Virus record (IMG/VR): IMGVR_UViG_3300042352_000270
Coordinates: 1 to 22,025 of that record
Strand: one strand, 5' to 3'
DNA from: a virus
DNA: 22,025 nt
Below are positions 4,394-19,288 of the stretch, piece by piece. Both the position numbers and the translations under genes were made by a program. The number at the start of each line of letters is the position of its first letter. Within the stretch, counting starts at the first letter, position 1. The notes beneath the pieces were generated by a model, which was not told the origin of the DNA, did not search any database, and was given only the letters and a program-made list of their open reading frames with translations.

Positions 4394-6328
4394 CTATGCG
4401 CTGATATCTACCAATTCGCAATTACCATCTGAGCTACAGGCTAGAGTTGCTGTTGGTGAAGTTCCGTCCTCTATCTCATAAAATGACAAGTCTTCCCAAC
4501 GAATACTTTTAGGCATTTTTGAAACAAGAGCATCATATTCTTCTTTTGTAACTTCCTGATAAGGAGCTTGCTTGTAAGTATGCTCCGAATGAGGCAAGAA
4601 TGATATTCCAGAAACCTCATCAAAGTTTTTATAAACCCAAGCTCCAACCTCCATCCATTCATCTTCTTTTACAGAAACTGTAATTGAAGGCTTGTGTTCG
4701 CACCAGGCTCTCTGGTAGACTAACCAAATGTTAAGGTGATCAATAGCTGTTAAATCATTTCTAACAATTGCTCCTTCTGGAGCTTTTACTGGAAATGAAA
4801 ACACGTATGTATCGTTTGGTTTCATTACGTCATCTTCTACTGGAATTCCAACTTCCTTTAAAAATGTAGAGATTGGATCTCCCTTTGAGCCACGCACTGT
4901 ACGAATATAATATGGCGAATGCCATGGATGCATTCCTGAAGATACCCCGACCAATTGAGACACTGTTCCAGAAGGCTTTACGCATGTAATAGCTGCAGAC
5001 TCAGGAATCCCAATTTTCCCAGACTCTTCTTTATTTACTTCTCTTGCACGATCACGCATTGACATTAAAAATGCTTCAAGAGCAATAATATCTTGCTTTC
5101 CAGACATAAACTTATGTCCGAACTGTCCTGTTAAAGATACCCCAAGCAGTCTTTCTTCTTCCGTATTATCTTTCCATATTTTACGAAGATATTTGAAGTC
5201 TGTTAATGTTGACTGCCACGTTCCAAGGATTGTAGCAAGCTCAACTTTGCGCTGGATATCTTCCTTTGTATCACTTTCACGTAATACGACTTCTGAAAGA
5301 TTACAAAACTGATAAGGACGAAGAATAATTTCTGAACATGGGTTCGTTCCATAATGGATTTCAGGGTTTCTACGACCAAATTTAGCTGCTTGCGCCTGCG
5401 CTGCCGCAACATTATAGATTCCACGTTCGCCAGATTTTGAGTCATATAAAGACTTCCATTCTGCAATAAATTGTTCCATCTCTGGTTTACGAGAATACGC
5501 AACAGAGTTATTTGACAAAGCACGTTGTGGACTTGCTTCCCACCAATTTCCTGCTTTTGCTTGAGCCATTTCAATATCATTAATGTTAGATAAAGAAATC
5601 ATTGCTGAGCGTCTTACGCCTCCAACAACTACTACTTCACCAATCTTGCACATAATGTCATGGCATTCGATTGGCTTAAGGCTTCTTCCAGCTGCATTCT
5701 TAAATTTTGCAATAGTAAAATCAAAAAGATTGACTAATGGCTGTGGACCTGAAGATCTTCCACCCATTGTCTTAAGTCTTGCTCCAGCTGGACGAACTTT
5801 AGAAACATCAATTGCTGGAATGTGTCCTGTCCAAAGCAAAGCAAGTAATTCACGATAAGCTTTAGCCCAACCTTGTTTTGAATCTTCAACAACAATTACA
5901 GTATCTGATTTTTCAAGTTTTTCTGGTACTGGTGGTAGCTTATTGATATACTTATATTCTACCGAGAATCCAACACCAGTTCCACACATAAGTACATACA
6001 TTGTCTCATCAAATGAGCGAGGGGAATCAACTGGCAGAAAAGCGCAATTATATCCAGCAACATTATCTCTTTCAAGTGCGGCTCCAGAGGTCATAACAGA
6101 TCTCATGGAGGGCATTACATTTCGTTCAAATACGAACTCTTTTAATTCCGCAACTAGCTTTTCATTTGGAATATAATTGTGATTTGCTTTTAAGTGATTG
6201 GTCATAAAAGAAAAATATCGATCTACTGTTTCTCCCCATGTTTCTCTACGACCTTCTGCCTCTACCCATTTTGCATATCTAGATAGAGCAATAAAATTTT
6301 CATAAGGATTTTCAATAGTCTGCGACAT
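4394..6328 (-). CDS. nrdJ: Class II (adenosylcobalamin-dependent) ribonucleoside-triphosphate reductase
   Basis: This 644-residue enzyme would convert ribonucleotides to deoxyribonucleotides by B12-generated radical chemistry, supplying dNTPs for phage replication. The active-site block NPCSE holds Asn329, Cys331 (radical cysteine) and Glu333. Cys95 lies in GYNCAFLP, where the family has a disulfide-forming cysteine, with Cys342 in FCNLSE as the candidate partner. PSGT at 452-455 is in the phosphate-binding region. The tail CSSDGNC (Cys631, Cys637) matches the C-terminal redox shuttle. The length is near that of the monomeric Lactobacillus-type reductase but about 95 residues shorter. No intein or frameshift is seen. 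It heads the minus-strand block that leads into the holin-like and tail genes, an unusual place for a nucleotide-metabolism gene. Confidence 0.93.
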   Translation of the reverse strand: MSQTIENPYENFIALSRYAKWVEAEGRRETWGETVDRYFSFMTNHLKANHNYIPNEKLVAELKEFVFERNVMPSMRSVMTSGAALERDNVAGYNCAFLPVDSPRSFDETMYVLMCGTGVGFSVEYKYINKLPPVPEKLEKSDTVIVVEDSKQGWAKAYRELLALLWTGHIPAIDVSKVRPAGARLKTMGGRSSGPQPLVNLFDFTIAKFKNAAGRSLKPIECHDIMCKIGEVVVVGGVRRSAMISLSNINDIEMAQAKAGNWWEASPQRALSNNSVAYSRKPEMEQFIAEWKSLYDSKSGERGIYNVAAAQAQAAKFGRRNPEIHYGTNPCSEIILRPYQFCNLSEVVLRESDTKEDIQRKVELATILGTWQSTLTDFKYLRKIWKDNTEEERLLGVSLTGQFGHKFMSGKQDIIALEAFLMSMRDRAREVNKEESGKIGIPESAAITCVKPSGTVSQLVGVSSGMHPWHSPYYIRTVRGSKGDPISTFLKEVGIPVEDDVMKPNDTYVFSFPVKAPEGAIVRNDLTAIDHLNIWLVYQRAWCEHKPSITVSVKEDEWMEVGAWVYKNFDEVSGISFLPHSEHTYKQAPYQEVTKEEYDALVSKMPKSIRWEDLSFYEIEDGTSPTATLACSSDGNCELVDISA

Positions 6329-6381
6329 TTATTATACGACCTTTTCTCCGCCTTGCGGTGCTATTTTTTGAATGAAGTCCT

Positions 6382-6410
6382 AGTGTATCAAACTTTTATT
6401 TAGCGGTCTA
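6382..6410 (-). promoter_or_regulatory. Possible RNR promoter
   Basis: On the minus strand TAGACC (6410-6405) and TACACT (6387-6382) are 17 nt apart. The -35 match is weak. It is the best candidate in the divergent RNR-lysin gap. Confidence 0.4.
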
Positions 6411-6457
6411 GGGGTTAAAAATATTTTTATATATATCAATATGTGAGATGCAATTTC

Positions 6458-6465
6458 AGTCAACT
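6458..6465 (+). promoter_or_regulatory. AGTCRACT motif upstream of lysin promoter
   Basis: AGTCAACT begins an inverted repeat AGTCA-AC-TGACT directly upstream of the lysin -35. The same TTKCAGTCRACT core occurs on the minus strand upstream of the sulfotransferase-like gene (9676-9683) and the JmjC-like gene (10605-10612). It is a possible operator for a shared regulator. Confidence 0.45.
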
Positions 6466-6468
6466 GAC

Positions 6469-6498
6469 TTGACATATATATCAATGCAATGCTATTCT
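6469..6498 (+). promoter_or_regulatory. SigA-type promoter of the lysin operon
   Basis: TTGACA (6469-6474), an 18-nt spacer and TATTCT (6493-6498) with an extended TGC just before the -10. The expected start is near 6505, leaving a short leader before AGGAGG at 6518. Confidence 0.7.
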
Positions 6499-6531
6499 TA
6501 GAGTTCGTTATCTCTATAGGAGGAAATGCCA

Positions 6532-7080
6532 ATGGAGAATATAAAAACGCAGTTTAGCGATTTGGTTCGTGACTGGACAATAATAGCAGTGGTAACACTG
6601 TTTTTGTTTTCTGGAACTCAACCAGCAATTGCTGTAACTGCAGTAAAACCTTTAGTGAAAACTGAAGCCCAATTAAAGCAAGAAGTCTTAGATAGTTTTA
6701 GTAAAGAGATTTACAAGCCATCTGAGATGCTTACAGACGAAGAGCTAGTTAAACTACTTAAGACTGTAGGATTCGAAGGACTAGGCCTTAAGAAAGCCTG
6801 GTCAATAGCAAAGCGTGAATCTAATGGAAGACCGCTTGCATATAACGGGAATAGGAATACAGGAGATAATTCTTACGGATTATTTCAAATAAATATGATT
6901 GGAAATCTTGGTCCTGAAAGACTTGAGAAATTTAATCTGCAGAGTAACAAGGAGTTATTCGACCCAGTAACAAACGCAGAGATAACGTACTATATGACCG
7001 ATGGCGGTAGTGATTGGTCAGCTTGGAAGGGTATGACCCCAAGAGCAAAGGAATTTTACTTAAAATTTCCAAACAACTAG
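6532..7080 (+). CDS. Secreted lysozyme-like / SLT-type muralytic enzyme
   Basis: This 182-residue protein has a signal peptide or N-terminal anchor: hydrophobic residues ~15-34 end in PAIA, a plausible cleavage site. The catalytic domain follows, with SIAKRESNGRP (candidate acid Glu96) and SYGLFQINM (~114-122), the two hallmark motifs of lytic transglycosylase/lysozyme-like folds. It would cleave peptidoglycan glycan strands, either as endolysin or as tail-associated lysin; the signal peptide suggests export independent of the holin. The ATG at 6532 lies 8 nt from AGGAGG, while the in-frame ATG at 6526 is only 2 nt away, so 6532 is preferred. It is the first gene of a plus-strand operon. Confidence 0.85.
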   Translation: MENIKTQFSDLVRDWTIIAVVTLFLFSGTQPAIAVTAVKPLVKTEAQLKQEVLDSFSKEIYKPSEMLTDEELVKLLKTVGFEGLGLKKAWSIAKRESNGRPLAYNGNRNTGDNSYGLFQINMIGNLGPERLEKFNLQSNKELFDPVTNAEITYYMTDGGSDWSAWKGMTPRAKEFYLKFPNN

Positions 7081-7090
7081 AGGAGGAAGT

Positions 7091-7303
7091 ATGAAGATAC
7101 AGTATGTGTCTAAGTACATCTCCTTATCAGAAGAGGGCCTTGTTCCAAGGATATATTGTCCAACGGATCAGGGCTCTCTTCTATGTAACACAGATCAAGA
7201 TGATCAAATATTTCTATATTGCTTGTCATGCAATTATAAAAAATATATAGGATTGCAGTTTTACGATAACATAAAGGGGTTAGTAGACAATGCCATACGA
7301 TAA
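7091..7303 (+). CDS. Small zinc-ribbon-like protein
   Basis: This 70-residue protein has cysteines near 23 and 32 and a clear C-x2-C pair (CLSC, ~44-47), suggesting a small metal-binding fold. No family is recognised. GAGGAGG lies just upstream, 10 nt after the lysin stop, so it belongs to the lysin operon. The role is unknown. Confidence 0.75.
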   Translation: MKIQYVSKYISLSEEGLVPRIYCPTDQGSLLCNTDQDDQIFLYCLSCNYKKYIGLQFYDNIKGLVDNAIR

Positions 7304-7481
7304 AGATTTACTTAGAGCTGTTGGAATGGGAATTCCATGCATGCACATGCCAGCTCTTCCTATGGCTCTAAAAGCCATTAAAGAGTTTAAGCAATACATT
7401 GATTCAGCTATTGAAACAGAAAAAACTTTACTTGATTTATCCCAAGATTTGGAAAGGATGATTAGTGAACGAGAGCAGTAA
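7290..7481 (+). CDS. Unknown small protein, helical C-terminus
   Basis: This 63-residue protein overlaps the previous gene by 14 nt. The N-terminus is rich in Met, Pro and Cys (GMGIPCMHMPALPMAL). Residues ~28-63 are charged and probably form one long helix or coiled coil. AAGGGG lies about 10 nt upstream of the ATG. No family is recognised. The minus-strand ORF here is a shadow. Confidence 0.65.
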   Translation: MPYDKDLLRAVGMGIPCMHMPALPMALKAIKEFKQYIDSAIETEKTLLDLSQDLERMISEREQ

Positions 7482-7659
7482 TCTAGAAGACAATCTTCCA
7501 ATGGTAAACTACATAATGCTTCATAGAATATATGACATGATGACATTAATGGCTAAAGCAACTGCTGGTCCTGAAGATGTCGCAAAAATGGTCAAGTATC
7601 ACGAAGATGGATTCCTGCTTGGGCCAGCTCCTGCATTTAGAGGAAATGATGATGTATAA
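7465..7659 (+). CDS. Unknown small protein with GTG start
   Basis: This 64-residue protein starts at GTG (7465) with GGAAAGG at 7451-7457, overlapping the previous gene by 17 nt. An ATG at 7501 is an alternative but lacks a ribosome binding site. The sequence is Met-rich with a C-terminal GFLLGPAPAF segment. No family is recognised. Confidence 0.6.
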   Translation: MNESSNLEDNLPMVNYIMLHRIYDMMTLMAKATAGPEDVAKMVKYHEDGFLLGPAPAFRGNDDV

Positions 7660-7667
7660 TTATATTT

Positions 7668-7829
7668 ATGAGCCCAAGACATTTTTCCAAAATGATGCAA
7701 AGTCCTTACTTTCAAACTGATCATTACAAGAATGAGACTTATGCTGGAAAGCTTGAGCAAAAAATTCAATTAAAATTTTACAACGCTATTTATATAATAA
7801 AGAAAAAAATACTTTTCAGAAACCGTTGA
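7668..7829 (+). CDS. Possible 53-residue basic protein
   Basis: The frame encodes MSPRHFSKMMQSPYFQTDHY and ends in a hydrophobic, Lys-rich tail (YNAIYIIKKKILFRNR). It fits the gap after the previous gene, and its stop overlaps the -35 of the small-RNA promoter. It lacks a clear ribosome binding site. A 23-codon frame from 7649, which does have AGAGGA upstream, overlaps it and could be a leader peptide. Confidence 0.4.
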   Translation: MSPRHFSKMMQSPYFQTDHYKNETYAGKLEQKIQLKFYNAIYIIKKKILFRNR

Positions 7830-7854
7830 CTTAAACACAATACTATCTTATAAT
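7826..7854 (+). promoter_or_regulatory. SigA-type promoter of a candidate small RNA
   Basis: TTGACT (7826-7831), exactly 17 nt, then a perfect TATAAT (7849-7854). The predicted start near 7861 coincides with the first base of a hairpin. No plus-strand gene follows. Confidence 0.75.
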
Positions 7855-7860
7855 AATATA

Positions 7861-7943
7861 CGTAAGTTGAGCTTTTAGTTCCTTACGTGCACGAAGGTGC
7901 AGAATAGGCTCCATACGAATCCGCCTTTGTATGGGGCCTATTT
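7861..7943 (+). ncRNA. Candidate small structured RNA (three hairpins)
   Basis: The stretch begins where the strong promoter at 7826-7854 would start transcription and contains no ORF. Hairpin 1: CGTAAG (7861-7866) pairs with CTTACG (7882-7887), with an inner GAGC/GTTC stem. Hairpin 2: TGCAC-GAAG-GTGCA (7888-7901). Hairpin 3: a 14-bp stem, 7903-7916 with 7929-7942, one G-U pair and a 12-nt loop, then TTT, which would act as terminator. Its 3' end overlaps the last codons of the convergent oxygenase gene. A phage regulatory RNA is the simplest reading; the target is unknown. Confidence 0.65.
7903..7943. terminator. Bidirectional terminator hairpin between convergent units
   Basis: The 14-bp stem (7903-7916 / 7929-7942) contains the TAG stop of the minus-strand oxygenase gene and sits at the convergence of both transcription units. 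The plus-strand T-tract is short (TTT), so efficiency is uncertain. Confidence 0.65.
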
Positions 7944-8537
7944 ACCTAATAGCCATCCAGTTATAGTATATCTGTTTCCTTCAATTACATCAAAAACCTC
8001 ATGAAGAACTCGTCCAGAATGTATAACTATGTCTCCTGGTTCTGGTATATGGGTATACTCTAGCTCTGGGTAGTTTATTTCACCACCCTTAAAGTCACTT
8101 AAATAAATTGTGTAGGCACATTGAATTGTAAATTCTTGTTTAGTCTCCACATCAAGATTATGATCCCCATCTCTATTATCTCTATGAGACTTCATGTTAT
8201 GTCCAGGCTTAAGTCTGACAACTTTATACTCTGGAAGAAAAACATAATCTGGTGAAAAAAGAGATTTGAGCTTTGCATTAATATTTGTTACTGAAGGAAT
8301 AAGAACTGGAGGGCTAACCTTGTCGCTCCACCATTCCGCAATAGGCTTTTCAGAGGAAGCTTCGTTTTTATAAAATAATGTTCCTTGATGCCTAGCCCAT
8401 CCATCTAGCCAGTCTTTTTCCTCAAAGGAATCTACGTGGTGCATTATCTCCTTGCAGTCTTCTGGAGAAACAAAGCCCTTGCCTATCCACACTCCTTCTT
8501 CTTTTACCTTAACTATATTTGGATCATCATAGAACAT
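7938..8537 (-). CDS. 2-oxoglutarate/Fe(II)-dependent oxygenase (prolyl-4-hydroxylase-like)
   Basis: This 199-residue double-stranded beta-helix protein has the facial triad His118-x-Asp120 (SHRDN) and His179 (VLHEV), plus Arg189 (GNRYTITGW), which would bind the 2-oxoglutarate carboxylate. The segment GGEINYPELEYTHIPEPGD is typical of P4H-like phage oxygenases. It would hydroxylate a protein, nucleotide or sugar substrate using O2, Fe(II) and 2-oxoglutarate. It is the third gene of a minus-strand operon behind a sulfotransferase-like protein, with GAGGAG upstream. The substrate is unknown; a modification cassette is plausible. Confidence 0.85.
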   Translation of the reverse strand: MFYDDPNIVKVKEEGVWIGKGFVSPEDCKEIMHHVDSFEEKDWLDGWARHQGTLFYKNEASSEKPIAEWWSDKVSPPVLIPSVTNINAKLKSLFSPDYVFLPEYKVVRLKPGHNMKSHRDNRDGDHNLDVETKQEFTIQCAYTIYLSDFKGGEINYPELEYTHIPEPGDIVIHSGRVLHEVFDVIEGNRYTITGWLLGK

Positions 8538-8540
8538 AAT

Positions 8541-8804
8541 TTACTCCTCATTTAAGTGCGAAAAAAGTGCGGCGGAAAATAGAGAGCACCCCATATTTCC
8601 TTTGACCCTATACATCTCGTCGGATGTAAGATCATATAACATATTCATAATTATACTACAGTCATCATGCTTCCACAATAAATCACATATGCCACCATTT
8701 GCAGAAGCATTCAGACAAAGGCCTAGCTTGCCCTGTAAATACTTTTTAAGTATCTCCTGGGCTTCTGGGCCAAGAAGATGAAGTTCGTGTCTTATATTAG
8801 CCAA
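8541..8804 (-). CDS. Unknown 87-residue protein between sulfotransferase and oxygenase
   Basis: The start is TTG at 8804-8802, giving an 8-nt overlap with the sulfotransferase-like gene, and the stop lies 3 nt before the oxygenase start. The protein is helical with cysteines at about 30, 40, 49 and 73 and the pattern LNASANGGICDLLWKHDDC. No family is recognised. Tight packing suggests it works with its neighbours. Confidence 0.65.
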   Translation of the reverse strand: MANIRHELHLLGPEAQEILKKYLQGKLGLCLNASANGGICDLLWKHDDCSIIMNMLYDLTSDEMYRVKGNMGCSLFSAALFSHLNEE

Positions 8805-9633
8805 GGAGAGCTTTTCCCGATTCTATGCAATTTGAGCAATATGAATACTTCTTCCAGGATGAGTCGAATTTAGTAGTATATGAGTACTCTCCACAGAATG
8901 AGCATACATTATCTAGTTGACTAAAAATACTATGATTGTTATAGATTTCATTGTCTATATCAAACATCTGTCTTATCTCGATCTTATCTTCTTCAGTTAG
9001 ACTGTTATATAGATTAGTTGATGCCATATTGTGGTAAGTTAAAGTATCTTTCTGGATTTCCCCCGCCAATTCTATGTTTAAGTCATCACATAGTTTTTTG
9101 ACTATGCTTTCTGGATTTTTAAGAGATACTTGTCTTACAAGAAGATTGATTCTATTTAATCTTTCATATAATAACTCTTTGTCGACATTATTATCTTTAG
9201 AATATTTTTTAATTATTATATTTAGGATATTGTTATATTCTTCTGAAGTATGTAGTATTTCTTTGCTTTGTAGATTATGAGTCCATTTGTTATATCTTAT
9301 CCACTCAAACATATACTTCTTGTCTAGTTCAATATTTACTATATTATCTTTTATAGAATCTGTATGCTTGCCGTTTTCATTTGATGGATGAAGCAATCCA
9401 GCTCTAGTAGATATCATATGTGCATAAACACTGCATATGTACTCTACTGGATCTCTTAGTATTGAAAAGACATATGTGTTATCGTCTATTTCTTTCTTCC
9501 AGCCTTCATGTCTATCTTTAATTGGAAGTTTTTCTACTTTGTCTTCGAGCTGCTTTAAAATGTATTCTTTAAAGTATCTTCCGCCAGTTTTTCTTATATG
9601 TAAAAAATAAAAGTTCTTAAATTCGTTTGTCAT
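8797..9633 (-). CDS. Sulfotransferase-family protein with C-terminal zinc ribbon
   Basis: This is a 278-residue protein. HIRKTGGRYFKEY (12-24) matches the 5'-phosphosulfate-binding loop (HxPKTGGTS-like) and SILRDPVEYICSVYAHM (57-73) matches the RDPVxRxxSxY 3'-phosphate-binding helix of PAPS-dependent sulfotransferases. The middle is helical. C244-x2-C247 and C266-x2-C269 form a separate zinc ribbon, an unusual addition. It would move sulfate from PAPS to a sugar, lipid or protein acceptor. Upstream are a TATAAT -10 and a duplicated regulatory block. Activity is inferred from motifs; the Arg replacing Pro in HIRKTGG is tolerated in viral homologues by my recollection. Confidence 0.75.
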   Translation of the reverse strand: MTNEFKNFYFLHIRKTGGRYFKEYILKQLEDKVEKLPIKDRHEGWKKEIDDNTYVFSILRDPVEYICSVYAHMISTRAGLLHPSNENGKHTDSIKDNIVNIELDKKYMFEWIRYNKWTHNLQSKEILHTSEEYNNILNIIIKKYSKDNNVDKELLYERLNRINLLVRQVSLKNPESIVKKLCDDLNIELAGEIQKDTLTYHNMASTNLYNSLTEEDKIEIRQMFDIDNEIYNNHSIFSQLDNVCSFCGEYSYTTKFDSSWKKYSYCSNCIESGKALLG

Positions 9634-9658
9634 TTATTTAATCCCCATCTCTTTATCA

Positions 9659-9687
9659 ATTATACTATATATTCTAGTTGACTGAAA
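9659..9687 (-). promoter_or_regulatory. Promoter of the sulfotransferase/oxygenase operon
   Basis: On the minus strand TATAAT (9664-9659) is preceded at 17 nt by TTTCAG (9687-9682), a weak -35 that overlaps the AGTCAACT motif (9676-9683). A regulator may replace the -35 contact. Confidence 0.55.
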
Positions 9688-9717
9688 TATCAAGATCTCA
9701 TAAATGTTAATAAAATT
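9676..9717 (-). repeat. Duplicated upstream block, copy A
   Basis: About 40 nt here (AGTTGACTGAAATATCAAGA and onward on the plus strand) recur with few changes at 10605-10650, each time upstream of a minus-strand gene. The shared core includes AGTCRACT and AATATCAAGATCT. Confidence 0.75.
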
Positions 9718-9904
9718 TTTTTCAGCTATTGCCTATTGCCTATATATATTATATTCTTTATATTGATTACTTGGGAATTAGATTTTTTAGCAAACCCCCC
9801 CTACCCCCCAAATTTTAACTTTTTGGAAAGATAGGAGAGAGTCTGAAATCAAATCCCAAGTACTACTTGGTGTATTGAGTTCCTTAGTGTAACCCCCCGA
9901 AACC

Positions 9905-9926
9905 TTCCTAAGTATAACATTAGGAA
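9905..9926. terminator. Weak hairpin downstream of JmjC-like gene
   Basis: TTCCTAA/TTAGGAA, 7 bp with an 8-nt loop, 20 bp beyond the minus-strand gene's stop. There is no good U-tract in either direction. Confidence 0.4.
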
Positions 9927-9945
9927 AATTCATGAGTCAATAGGT

Positions 9946-10578
9946 TTAGTGGTTTTTATTTAAACCTTCAAGGAAATCTGCTCTTTGTTTCTTATTAAAA
10001 GCTTCCCGCTCTTCTTCAGTTTTTAAGCTTCCAGTAATATAATCTGGAAAATCGTCATACGATAAATTCATAAATATTAAAGAACCTCTATCTGATAAAG
10101 GAGTAGTCTCATGTAAGACAAATCCTCTCATGTATAGAACATCTCCAGCTTCCAGTACGATTCTGTACTCCTGCTTATCTTCTGGATCAATTAGTAGCCA
10201 TTCTACGCTTCCATAGCAAGCTAAATGGACTACATCAGATTGATCACAATGTAGGCTTGCATGTACTTTGCCAACTGAGTAATGATTTGTTTGCATTAAG
10301 CTATTGTAGGCTTTAGTAGGATTTCCGTAGATCTTAATTAGTGCTCTTTGAATACTGTTCCATTCTTCAAAGTAGCCTAAGTTTTCTTCTGAGATACCGA
10401 CTCTTGATTGCTGAGTGCCAAGCTGCTTTTTAAATTCATTAAAAACTTCTTCAGTAGGAGGATTTTGAACTCCCCCCTTTAATATTGCAAAAGGCAAATT
10501 TTCTAACTTAGCTTCTAAAACCAGCTTAGTTATGTTTTGTGGAGTTGATAAATTGGTGTCTCTAAATTTTTCATTCAT
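9946..10578 (-). CDS. JmjC/cupin-type 2OG-Fe(II) oxygenase
   Basis: This is a 210-residue protein. LHCDQSDVVHLACYGSVEWLLIDP (from residue 109) carries His110-x-Asp112 followed by the Gly-x-x-x-W strand seen in JmjC ribosomal-oxygenase-like cupins, and RGFVLHETTP carries the third ligand His156. AGDVLYMRGFVLHE fits the distal beta-helix strands. It would be a protein hydroxylase or related oxygenase. The family is distinct from the P4H-like oxygenase at 7938-8537, so this region encodes two different Fe/2OG enzymes. It has its own TATAAT and the same duplicated block upstream as the sulfotransferase operon. The substrate is unknown. Confidence 0.75.
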   Translation of the reverse strand: MNEKFRDTNLSTPQNITKLVLEAKLENLPFAILKGGVQNPPTEEVFNEFKKQLGTQQSRVGISEENLGYFEEWNSIQRALIKIYGNPTKAYNSLMQTNHYSVGKVHASLHCDQSDVVHLACYGSVEWLLIDPEDKQEYRIVLEAGDVLYMRGFVLHETTPLSDRGSLIFMNLSYDDFPDYITGSLKTEEEREAFNKKQRADFLEGLNKNH

Positions 10579-12749: not shown

Positions 12750-12780
12750 ACTCTTATAACAACAACGAAAGGCGGACACC

Positions 12781-12981
12781 ATGTCAGCAAATGTTTATAC
12801 AGTCGAAAGCCTCTTAGTAGGCAAGCCCTATCAGTCCAATTCGGTTAAGGGAGAAATTATCTCAGCCGAAAAAAATAATGATGTTTGGTATTCCGAGTGC
12901 GATACTTATAAGGTTCAGGTTCGACCTTATAATTCGATTAAAGATACTTATCGTTATTTAGCCGTAAAAACTTCCGATTAA
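12781..12981 (+). CDS. Unknown 66-residue protein
   Basis: ACGAAAGG precedes the ATG. MSANVYTVESLLVGKPYQSN... is beta-rich and Tyr-rich and probably forms a small barrel. It is followed by an attenuator-like hairpin rather than by direct overlap. No family is recognised. Confidence 0.65.
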   Translation: MSANVYTVESLLVGKPYQSNSVKGEIISAEKNNDVWYSECDTYKVQVRPYNSIKDTYRYLAVKTSD

Positions 12982-17126: not shown

Positions 17127-17203
17127 GGTCCGTTAGCTCAGTTGGTTAGAGCGCTACCCTGTCACGGTAGAGGTCACGAGTTCAAGTCTCGTACGGATCG
17201 CCA
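17127..17203 (+). tRNA. tRNA-Asp (anticodon GTC), CCA encoded
   Basis: It is 77 nt with the 3' CCA. The acceptor stem GGTCCGT/ACGGATC is complete with one G-U pair. The D arm is TAGCTCAGTTGGTTAGAGC, the anticodon arm CTACC-CTGTCAC-GGTAG gives GTC, and the T arm is ACGAG-TTCAAGT-CTCGT. The discriminator base is G, as expected for tRNA-Asp. No intron or mismatch is seen. It may support Asp codon (GAC/GAT) decoding in the many acidic phage proteins. Confidence 0.95.
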
Positions 17204-18583: not shown

Positions 18584-18730
18584 ATGTCAGATTATAAAGA
18601 TGGTTGGGACGACGGGTATAAGTTTGCTCGTGAAGAAATCATGGAGAAGTTGTCAGAGATTGATATCAATGACATTGACTCATGGATTCTTGACCGTCTT
18701 TCCGAAATGATTGAAGGAGGCTCGCTATGA
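18584..18730 (+). CDS. Unknown 48-residue acidic protein
   Basis: AGGAGAG precedes the ATG. MSDYKDGWDDGYKFAREEIM is a GWDDGY-x-x-A-type helix-turn seen in small phage proteins, then an acidic helix. Ends by ATGA overlap with the zinc-ribbon gene. No family is recognised. Confidence 0.65.
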   Translation: MSDYKDGWDDGYKFAREEIMEKLSEIDINDIDSWILDRLSEMIEGGSL

Positions 18731-18921
18731 ATGAATGGATCGGTTGCGATAAATGTAATTCAGTAGTACCTGCAATGTATTTAGTTAAGATGGTCAGCGG
18801 CGAGCTTGCTTTCTGTGGTCATCATTTTAACAAGTTTAAGCCAGGCCTTGACAAGGTCTCGTATGAAGTGATAGAATTGAATAAGGCAGAAGTAATACCT
18901 CAACTAGAAACGGCGGAATAA
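18727..18921 (+). CDS. DUF7455-like zinc-ribbon protein
   Basis: This 64-residue protein has C7-x2-C10 (CDKC) and, after a beta hairpin (MYLVKMVSGELAFC), C30-x-H-H (FCGHH), the pattern of the short actinobacterial DUF7455 proteins (CDRC ... LFCGHH). It should bind one zinc. The function of the family is unknown. This is one of the better clues to an actinobacterial host. Confidence 0.75.
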   Translation: MNEWIGCDKCNSVVPAMYLVKMVSGELAFCGHHFNKFKPGLDKVSYEVIELNKAEVIPQLETAE

Positions 18922-18922
18922 A

Positions 18923-19288
18923 ATGGGCGACAGAGCAAACTTTGGATTTAAAGATTCTAAAGGCGATACACTATATCTATATGGACACTGGGCGGGCTAT
19001 GACATGCTAGCAAAACTAGCCAATGCTGTAAGCGCTGCAGAGCCAAGGTGGCAGGACCCTTCATATGCAACACGTATTGCTATCTCTAATTTAGTTGGAG
19101 ATGAGTGGGCCCAAACAACTGGATGGGGCCTTAGCATTAATCACATCCTAGACAACGAGCACAAGATTCCTGTAATCAATTGGGCCACACAAACGTTTAC
19201 ACTGTATGAAGAGGACCTCCAAACAGTTGTATTTACTTTATCATTAGCCGCATTTGTCGATAAATATAGTAGGCTAGTTATGGTATAA
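18923..19288 (+). CDS. MGDRAN-type conserved phage hypothetical
   Basis: This is a 121-residue protein. MGDRANFGFKDSKGDTLYLYGHWAGYDM and later ATRIAISNLVGDEWAQTTGWGLSINHILDNEHKIPVINW match a pattern I recall from many phages (MGDRANV ... LYGHWAG ... TGxGIS ... DNEYP). No function is established. It begins 1 nt after the previous stop and ends before a strong terminator. Confidence 0.75.
   Translation: MGDRANFGFKDSKGDTLYLYGHWAGYDMLAKLANAVSAAEPRWQDPSYATRIAISNLVGDEWAQTTGWGLSINHILDNEHKIPVINWATQTFTLYEEDLQTVVFTLSLAAFVDKYSRLVMV

Follow-up and report, generated by a model that had tools for sequence, protein, structure and literature searches.

Phage T4 RegA is a protein that represses several phage replication genes at their initiation regions. 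Among small RNAs (sRNAs), the actinobacterial 6C/B11 RNA (B11 in M. abscessus) uses C-rich loops to pair with ribosome-binding sites and to repress its targets (PMC10470900), and the phage sRNAs PreS of lambda and VpdS of VP882 bind Hfq and include host targets (PMC12197685). The sRNA described here, found in a 22,025-nt stretch of viral DNA (the window), resembles each of these regulators in part. Like 6C/B11 (RF01066), it is a free-standing sRNA with a C-rich hairpin loop, for which we propose pairing with ribosome-binding sites and consequent repression. Unlike 6C/B11, which has two C-rich loops, it has one UCCGCC loop, placed in its terminator, in an RNA of other sequence and layout that is phage-encoded, has proposed targets among phage genes, and matches no Rfam family. 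It shares with PreS and VpdS the character of a phage-encoded, putatively trans-acting sRNA, and PreS is also tied to replication; by contrast, those RNAs bind Hfq and have host genes among their targets, whereas the targets proposed here are phage mRNAs. As with RegA, one repressor would act on several replication genes of a phage at their initiation regions, but RegA is a protein and the present repressor would be an RNA with exact complementarity to its sites. Judging by the open-access literature, conserved phage targets for a phage sRNA appear to be a variant not described before. If our reading is correct, these freshwater phages contain a virus-wide RNA regulon, found in hundreds of metagenome contigs, in which one sRNA has a seed conserved to the base and its sites co-evolve before replication genes. 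A phage in an actinobacterial host would then be able to tune its replication programme through an RNA that pairs with the phage's mRNAs.

The small RNA gene and its homologues

The sRNA, predicted to span ≈83 nt at positions 7861–7943 on the plus strand, is supported by its fold, its homologues, and a covariance-model match of 79.7 bits. Its promoter (7826–7854, plus strand) consists of a −35 hexamer TTGACT (7826–7831) and a −10 hexamer TATAAT (7849–7854) separated by a 17-nt spacer. A scan of positions 6000–10000 ranked it as one of the two top-scoring sigma-70-like sites, in agreement with the near-consensus promoter reported in the initial annotation of this DNA. The three hairpins that the same annotation had placed from position 7861 were recovered at −40.6 kcal/mol for 7861–7943 (z = −7.0 relative to 200 shuffles), and the reverse strand of the region folds less well (z = −3.4). 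Hairpin P1 (7861–7887, plus strand) comprises an outer stem, a 2-nt 5′ bulge that follows an invariant G-C pair and reads UU, UC, or UA across homologues, and an inner hairpin. Hairpin P2 (GCAC/GUGC; 7888–7901, plus strand) is variable and is missing from some homologues (L040 and L101). Hairpin P3 (7902–7943, plus strand) is the terminator stem and displays a near-invariant loop AUCCGCCU (7919–7926, plus strand), of which the unpaired UCCGCC (7920–7925) is the proposed mRNA-pairing seed. This last stem had been described as a terminator-like helix of 14 bp with a 12-nt loop. Its nature as an intrinsic terminator stands, given that the stem is followed by a U-rich tail in many homologues, the tail of the window copy being short (UAUUUACC); its geometry required revision, as P3 is best drawn with 18 pairs (counting G-U) and the 6-nt loop UCCGCC.

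Outside the last stem, 7861–7943 contains no AUG, and the next gene downstream, which encodes a 2OG-Fe(II) oxygenase (7938–8537, minus strand), is convergent, confirming the claims that the element lacks a start codon outside its final stem and is followed by no plus-strand gene. The stop codon of the oxygenase gene lies inside the P3 stem, overlapped by its 3′ arm, and we regard this gene as flanking sequence rather than as part of the regulator. Since the downstream gene is convergent and not on the same strand, a cis-acting leader or riboswitch was rejected. The syntenic neighbour upstream is a phrog_12271-like gene (7465–7659, plus strand). Homologues share no open frame: AUG frames range from 0 to 22 codons and are absent in 31/84 of them. 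Each phage genome has several 2OG-Fe(II) oxygenase-like relatives (window 7938–8537; records G002–G005).

A scan using the oxygenase neighbour yielded nine loci with protein identities of 68–100%, all nine with the sRNA element, and scans with two small neighbour genes enlarged the collection to 84 distinct homologues. All members of this set, which was selected for a paired P3 stem, have the exact loop AUCCGCCU and the stem. A promoter-plus-loop pattern search brought in more distant members; L040 and L101, for example, have no P2 and are followed by different genes but keep the promoter, P1, and the loop. A promoter pattern with the TTGACA variant returned 88 stretches, among which L101 was the one clear new member. 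The promoter hexamers are present in 70 of the 84 distinct homologues (69 with 17-nt spacing and one with 18), and a recognizable promoter is absent in 14. Both hexamers are conserved between homologues, and the sequence of the 17-nt spacer diverges. When the question was asked regardless of promoter or P1, the loop hairpin was located 3′ of the phrog_12271-like gene in 135/156 loci, mostly 100–440 nt downstream, and several of the 21 loci without it are cut off.

In a 16-sequence alignment, 13 of the 18 consensus pairs, in P3 and P2, show two-sided (compensatory) changes, to be read with caution for P3 given how members were selected, and the outer stem pairs of P1 vary with compensation among 56 distinct P1 sequences. 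A MAFFT alignment of all members placed P1 wrongly, and the covariance model was therefore built on a subset. With this model, the window and eight phage records (104.6–116.2 kb) gave a single match each, and Streptomyces phage Jay2Jay and the examined parts of Naboo and Navo gave none. Two of the checks proposed in the initial annotation, base-pair conservation and a covariance search for homologues, thus both came out positive and, along with the conserved promoter and structure, support its reading of a stand-alone sRNA. The terminator loop UCCGCC is almost unchanging, with the exception of a variant clade (L201/L230) that has ACCCGCCU, and the other loops of the sRNA are variable. One subfamily (e.g. 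L182, L183, and L298) has a conserved AUCCCAC in the apical loop of P1, possibly a second pairing loop. Comparative sequence evidence establishes the sRNA gene, with its promoter, structure, conservation, and synteny, as well as the conserved sites complementary to it.

Complementary sites before phage genes

The complement of the terminator loop, AGGCGGA(U), recurs ahead of the start codons of particular phage genes. Based on initiation sites called by a simple purpose-written script, GGCGGA is present in the initiation regions of 33/34 distinct MGDRANF genes and 20/28 distinct DNA polymerase III alpha genes, compared to 0/55, 0/27, and 1/51 distinct regions of three control genes (1/133 together). 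Among the DNA polymerase III alpha exceptions, two distinct regions have GGUGGA and one has GGCGGG, which could still pair with the loop through G-U pairs. In the aligned leaders of ribonucleotide reductase (RNR) genes, the count is 75/97 distinct sequences, and several of the leaders without the motif are mis-anchored on a longer protein. A third gene also has the motif in most of its initiation regions. In the MGDRANF and DNA polymerase III alpha regions, the motif stops 5–6 nt short of the start codon and is preceded by a variable base, where flank columns for this comparison were drawn from site-bearing sequences only. In the reading frame that runs in from upstream, the MGDRANF site is spelled with infrequent codons: GCG, at 5.4% of Ala codons, and in many cases ACG, at 4.5% of Thr codons. 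Conserved complementarity of this kind is expected of a base-pairing regulator of phage mRNAs, and the RNA is probably such a regulator of phage development.

Target prediction from the single-stranded loops had also been suggested in the initial annotation. It points to the terminator loop, whose likely role in target binding had gone unnoticed and which matches sites ahead of phage genes, including three in the window. One proposed site (6347–6352, minus strand) lies within AGGCGGAG (6353–6346) in the leader of the RNR gene (4394–6328, minus strand; Pfam PF02867 and PF21995), a proposed target. A second (18912–18917, plus strand) is 5 nt before the start of an MGDRANF-family gene (18923–19288, plus strand), also a proposed target, whose homologues have a conserved GGCGGA before the start; this site falls in the last codons of ORF 18727–18921, which ends LETAE. 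The third (12771–12776, plus strand) precedes the small ORF MSANVYTVESLLVG (12781–12981, plus strand), a possible target, and is predicted to pair more stably than any other site in the window (−15.4 kcal/mol with the window's own loop). The G003 ortholog of this ORF also has GGCGGA, and other orthologs are without it.

Proposed mode of action and alternatives

The best explanation of these observations, to which we assign a probability of about 0.68, is that a phage sRNA acts in trans to mask the Shine-Dalgarno sites of replication genes of the same phage and so represses them. We infer that the sRNA would be transcribed from its own promoter, end at its intrinsic terminator, and act in trans, with the P3 apical loop UCCGCC (within AUCCGCCU) pairing in the cell with GGCGGA in the initiation regions of phage mRNAs. 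The proposed targets are the mRNAs for DNA polymerase III alpha, RNR, and MGDRANF, that of the 'DNHWFNP' gene, and some further mRNAs. In most cases GGCGGA occupies the Shine-Dalgarno position, so that pairing is expected to keep the 30S subunit from binding and would lower translation of the target genes. Shine-Dalgarno occlusion, and with it repression rather than activation, is favored because of the placement of the sites before start codons. The purpose, we infer, would be to adjust when or how strongly the replication genes are expressed. A stronger version, which we put forward tentatively, is a riboregulated replication regulon, built by a large clade of phages, in which GGCGGA replaces the normal Shine-Dalgarno sequence of several replication genes and genes without assigned function, one sRNA switches the genes together, and lineages without the sRNA are losing their sites.

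The covariance model found no match in 15 of the 29 records searched, many of which are fragments without the sRNA neighbourhood. Six records (G026, G027, G028, G030, G031, and G038) have the neighbour gene, after which a different small gene and an ordinary terminator stand in place of the sRNA, and these six together with the near-identical G029 constituted the sRNA-less set. Among distinct initiation regions of four target families, GGCGGA occurs in 43/45 from sRNA-bearing records compared to 4/11 from sRNA-less records (Fisher p = 4e-5, uncorrected for relatedness and with two or three lineages on the sRNA-less side). Within the sRNA-less set, two of the four sites are still present in G038, and the RNR and DNA polymerase III alpha sites persist in one lineage. 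By this comparison of sequences, complementary sites partly decay where the sRNA is missing. This decay bears on a reading in which the sRNA is real and acts mainly on host mRNAs, with the phage sites secondary or incidental. Such a role would have a precedent in PreS, a known phage sRNA that acts on host mRNA (PMC12197685). However, incidental sites would not predict both conservation before specific phage genes and partial decay in the absence of the sRNA, and we consider this reading unlikely.

The RNR leader departs from the usual placement, in that GGCGGA often lies ≈25 nt upstream of the start in a small hairpin (CCGC pairs with GCGG), and this hairpin may account for part of the conservation of the motif there. 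In the window, the hairpin (6346–6360, minus strand) is CCGCNAGGCGG, and its variants CCAUAAGGUGG and CGCUAAGCG carry changes that are apparently compensatory. Counting loci with both features, the RNR site is present in 86 of 89 loci with a canonical sRNA; canonical-sRNA loci L278, L182, and L205 and record G035 have no RNR site. The site is likewise lacking in L274, L275, and L284, where the covariance model finds no sRNA, and in L201, L229, and L238 of the variant-loop clade, and three short loci without a detected sRNA have it. The frequent CCGC/GCGG mini-hairpin would suit an sRNA that activates, for example by opening the RNR-leader hairpin or by protecting mRNA 5′ ends. Activation is also unlikely, as the MGDRANF, DNHWFNP, and most DNA polymerase III alpha sites are at the Shine-Dalgarno position and have no such hairpin.

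Repression by an sRNA that covers Shine-Dalgarno sites was further weighed against motif usage in the initiation regions of 148 gene families in the eight phage records and the window. Of the 30 hexamers obtained by permuting its bases, GGCGGA is the commonest: it scores 35 family-genome hits and reaches four or more genomes in 3 families. The near-Shine-Dalgarno variants GGTGGA and GGGGGA have 7 and 4 family-genome hits, respectively, in the same regions. By duplex energy with the 8-nt core of the loop, four families (RNR, DNHWFNP, MGDRANF, and DNA polymerase III alpha) stand out in four or more genomes, a result of moderate specificity in that 3/120 shuffled loops also reach four families. 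The loop:site duplex has an energy of −10.2 kcal/mol compared to −2.5 kcal/mol for the 16S anti-Shine-Dalgarno pairing CCUCC:GGCGG. Per-genome k-mer counts do not clearly set the sRNA carriers apart, since AGGCGG enrichment is also seen in the sRNA-less Streptomyces phage Jay2Jay, where the motif is mildly enriched before genes (6 compared to 1.2 expected). This last observation would fit GGCGGA serving as a weak Shine-Dalgarno sequence or as an operator for a RegA-like repressor protein, with coincidental complementarity to the loop. We find such a coincidence unlikely as well, because GGTGGA and GGGGGA are not comparably used, the conserved core is an exact match to the 6-nt loop, and the sites decay where the sRNA is missing. 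Finally, the overlap of P3 with the convergent oxygenase stop codon in the window might point to nothing more than a bidirectional terminator that serves two convergent genes. Such a reading, without any RNA regulator, is highly improbable, as the promoter, P1, and the loop are conserved and the sRNA is still there in L040, which lacks the convergent oxygenase gene, and in L101, where a different gene order follows.

Several DNHWFNP leaders (e.g. L588, L592, and L598) carry GGCGGA twice in tandem (AGGCGGAAGGCGGA). Another motif that recurs often, AACGAAAGG, occurs before many genes in the eight records and is not explained by Shine-Dalgarno function alone.

Class assignment and probable hosts

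Rfam returned no match at the gathering threshold in the window or in seven homologue loci, and nothing relevant around the window copy when the cutoff was relaxed to E = 10. Identity with 6C RNA (RF01066) was rejected, as its Rfam model did not match and the RNA has a single UCCGCC loop rather than two loops with C runs. Mimicry of the 16S 3′ end by the loop region was also rejected, because the GG of GGAUC is not conserved (the window has an A-U closing pair). BLAST searches with the flank or a typical sRNA found no match among annotated phages and plasmids, and GTDB genomes contained no relative of the neighbour gene; one exact P3-pattern match in GTDB, in an Akkermansia MAG, has no 5′ stem and was attributed to chance. 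The Stanwilliamsviridae examined (Streptomyces phages) were rejected as carriers, since they have other non-coding sequence at the corresponding place and no model match. Jay2Jay (L156 4195–4430) and Naboo (L157 3240–3480) share a different stretch 3′ of the phrog_12271-like gene, seemingly with several hairpins of which the last is a terminator, and possibly a positional analogue of the sRNA.

WhiB has been described as restricted to Actinobacteria and serves to mark phages of that group (PMC10202952, PMC6802176). It is encoded in 9 of the 14 records checked and in all eight sRNA-bearing records of 104.6–116.2 kb, and the window record, a 22-kb fragment, has no WhiB match. The nearest phage matches of the RNR encoded in the window are from Streptomyces phages (65–66%). 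Together, these two lines of sequence evidence imply that the sRNA-bearing freshwater phages probably infect Actinobacteria. The window also contains a tRNA-Asp(gtc) gene at 17127–17203.
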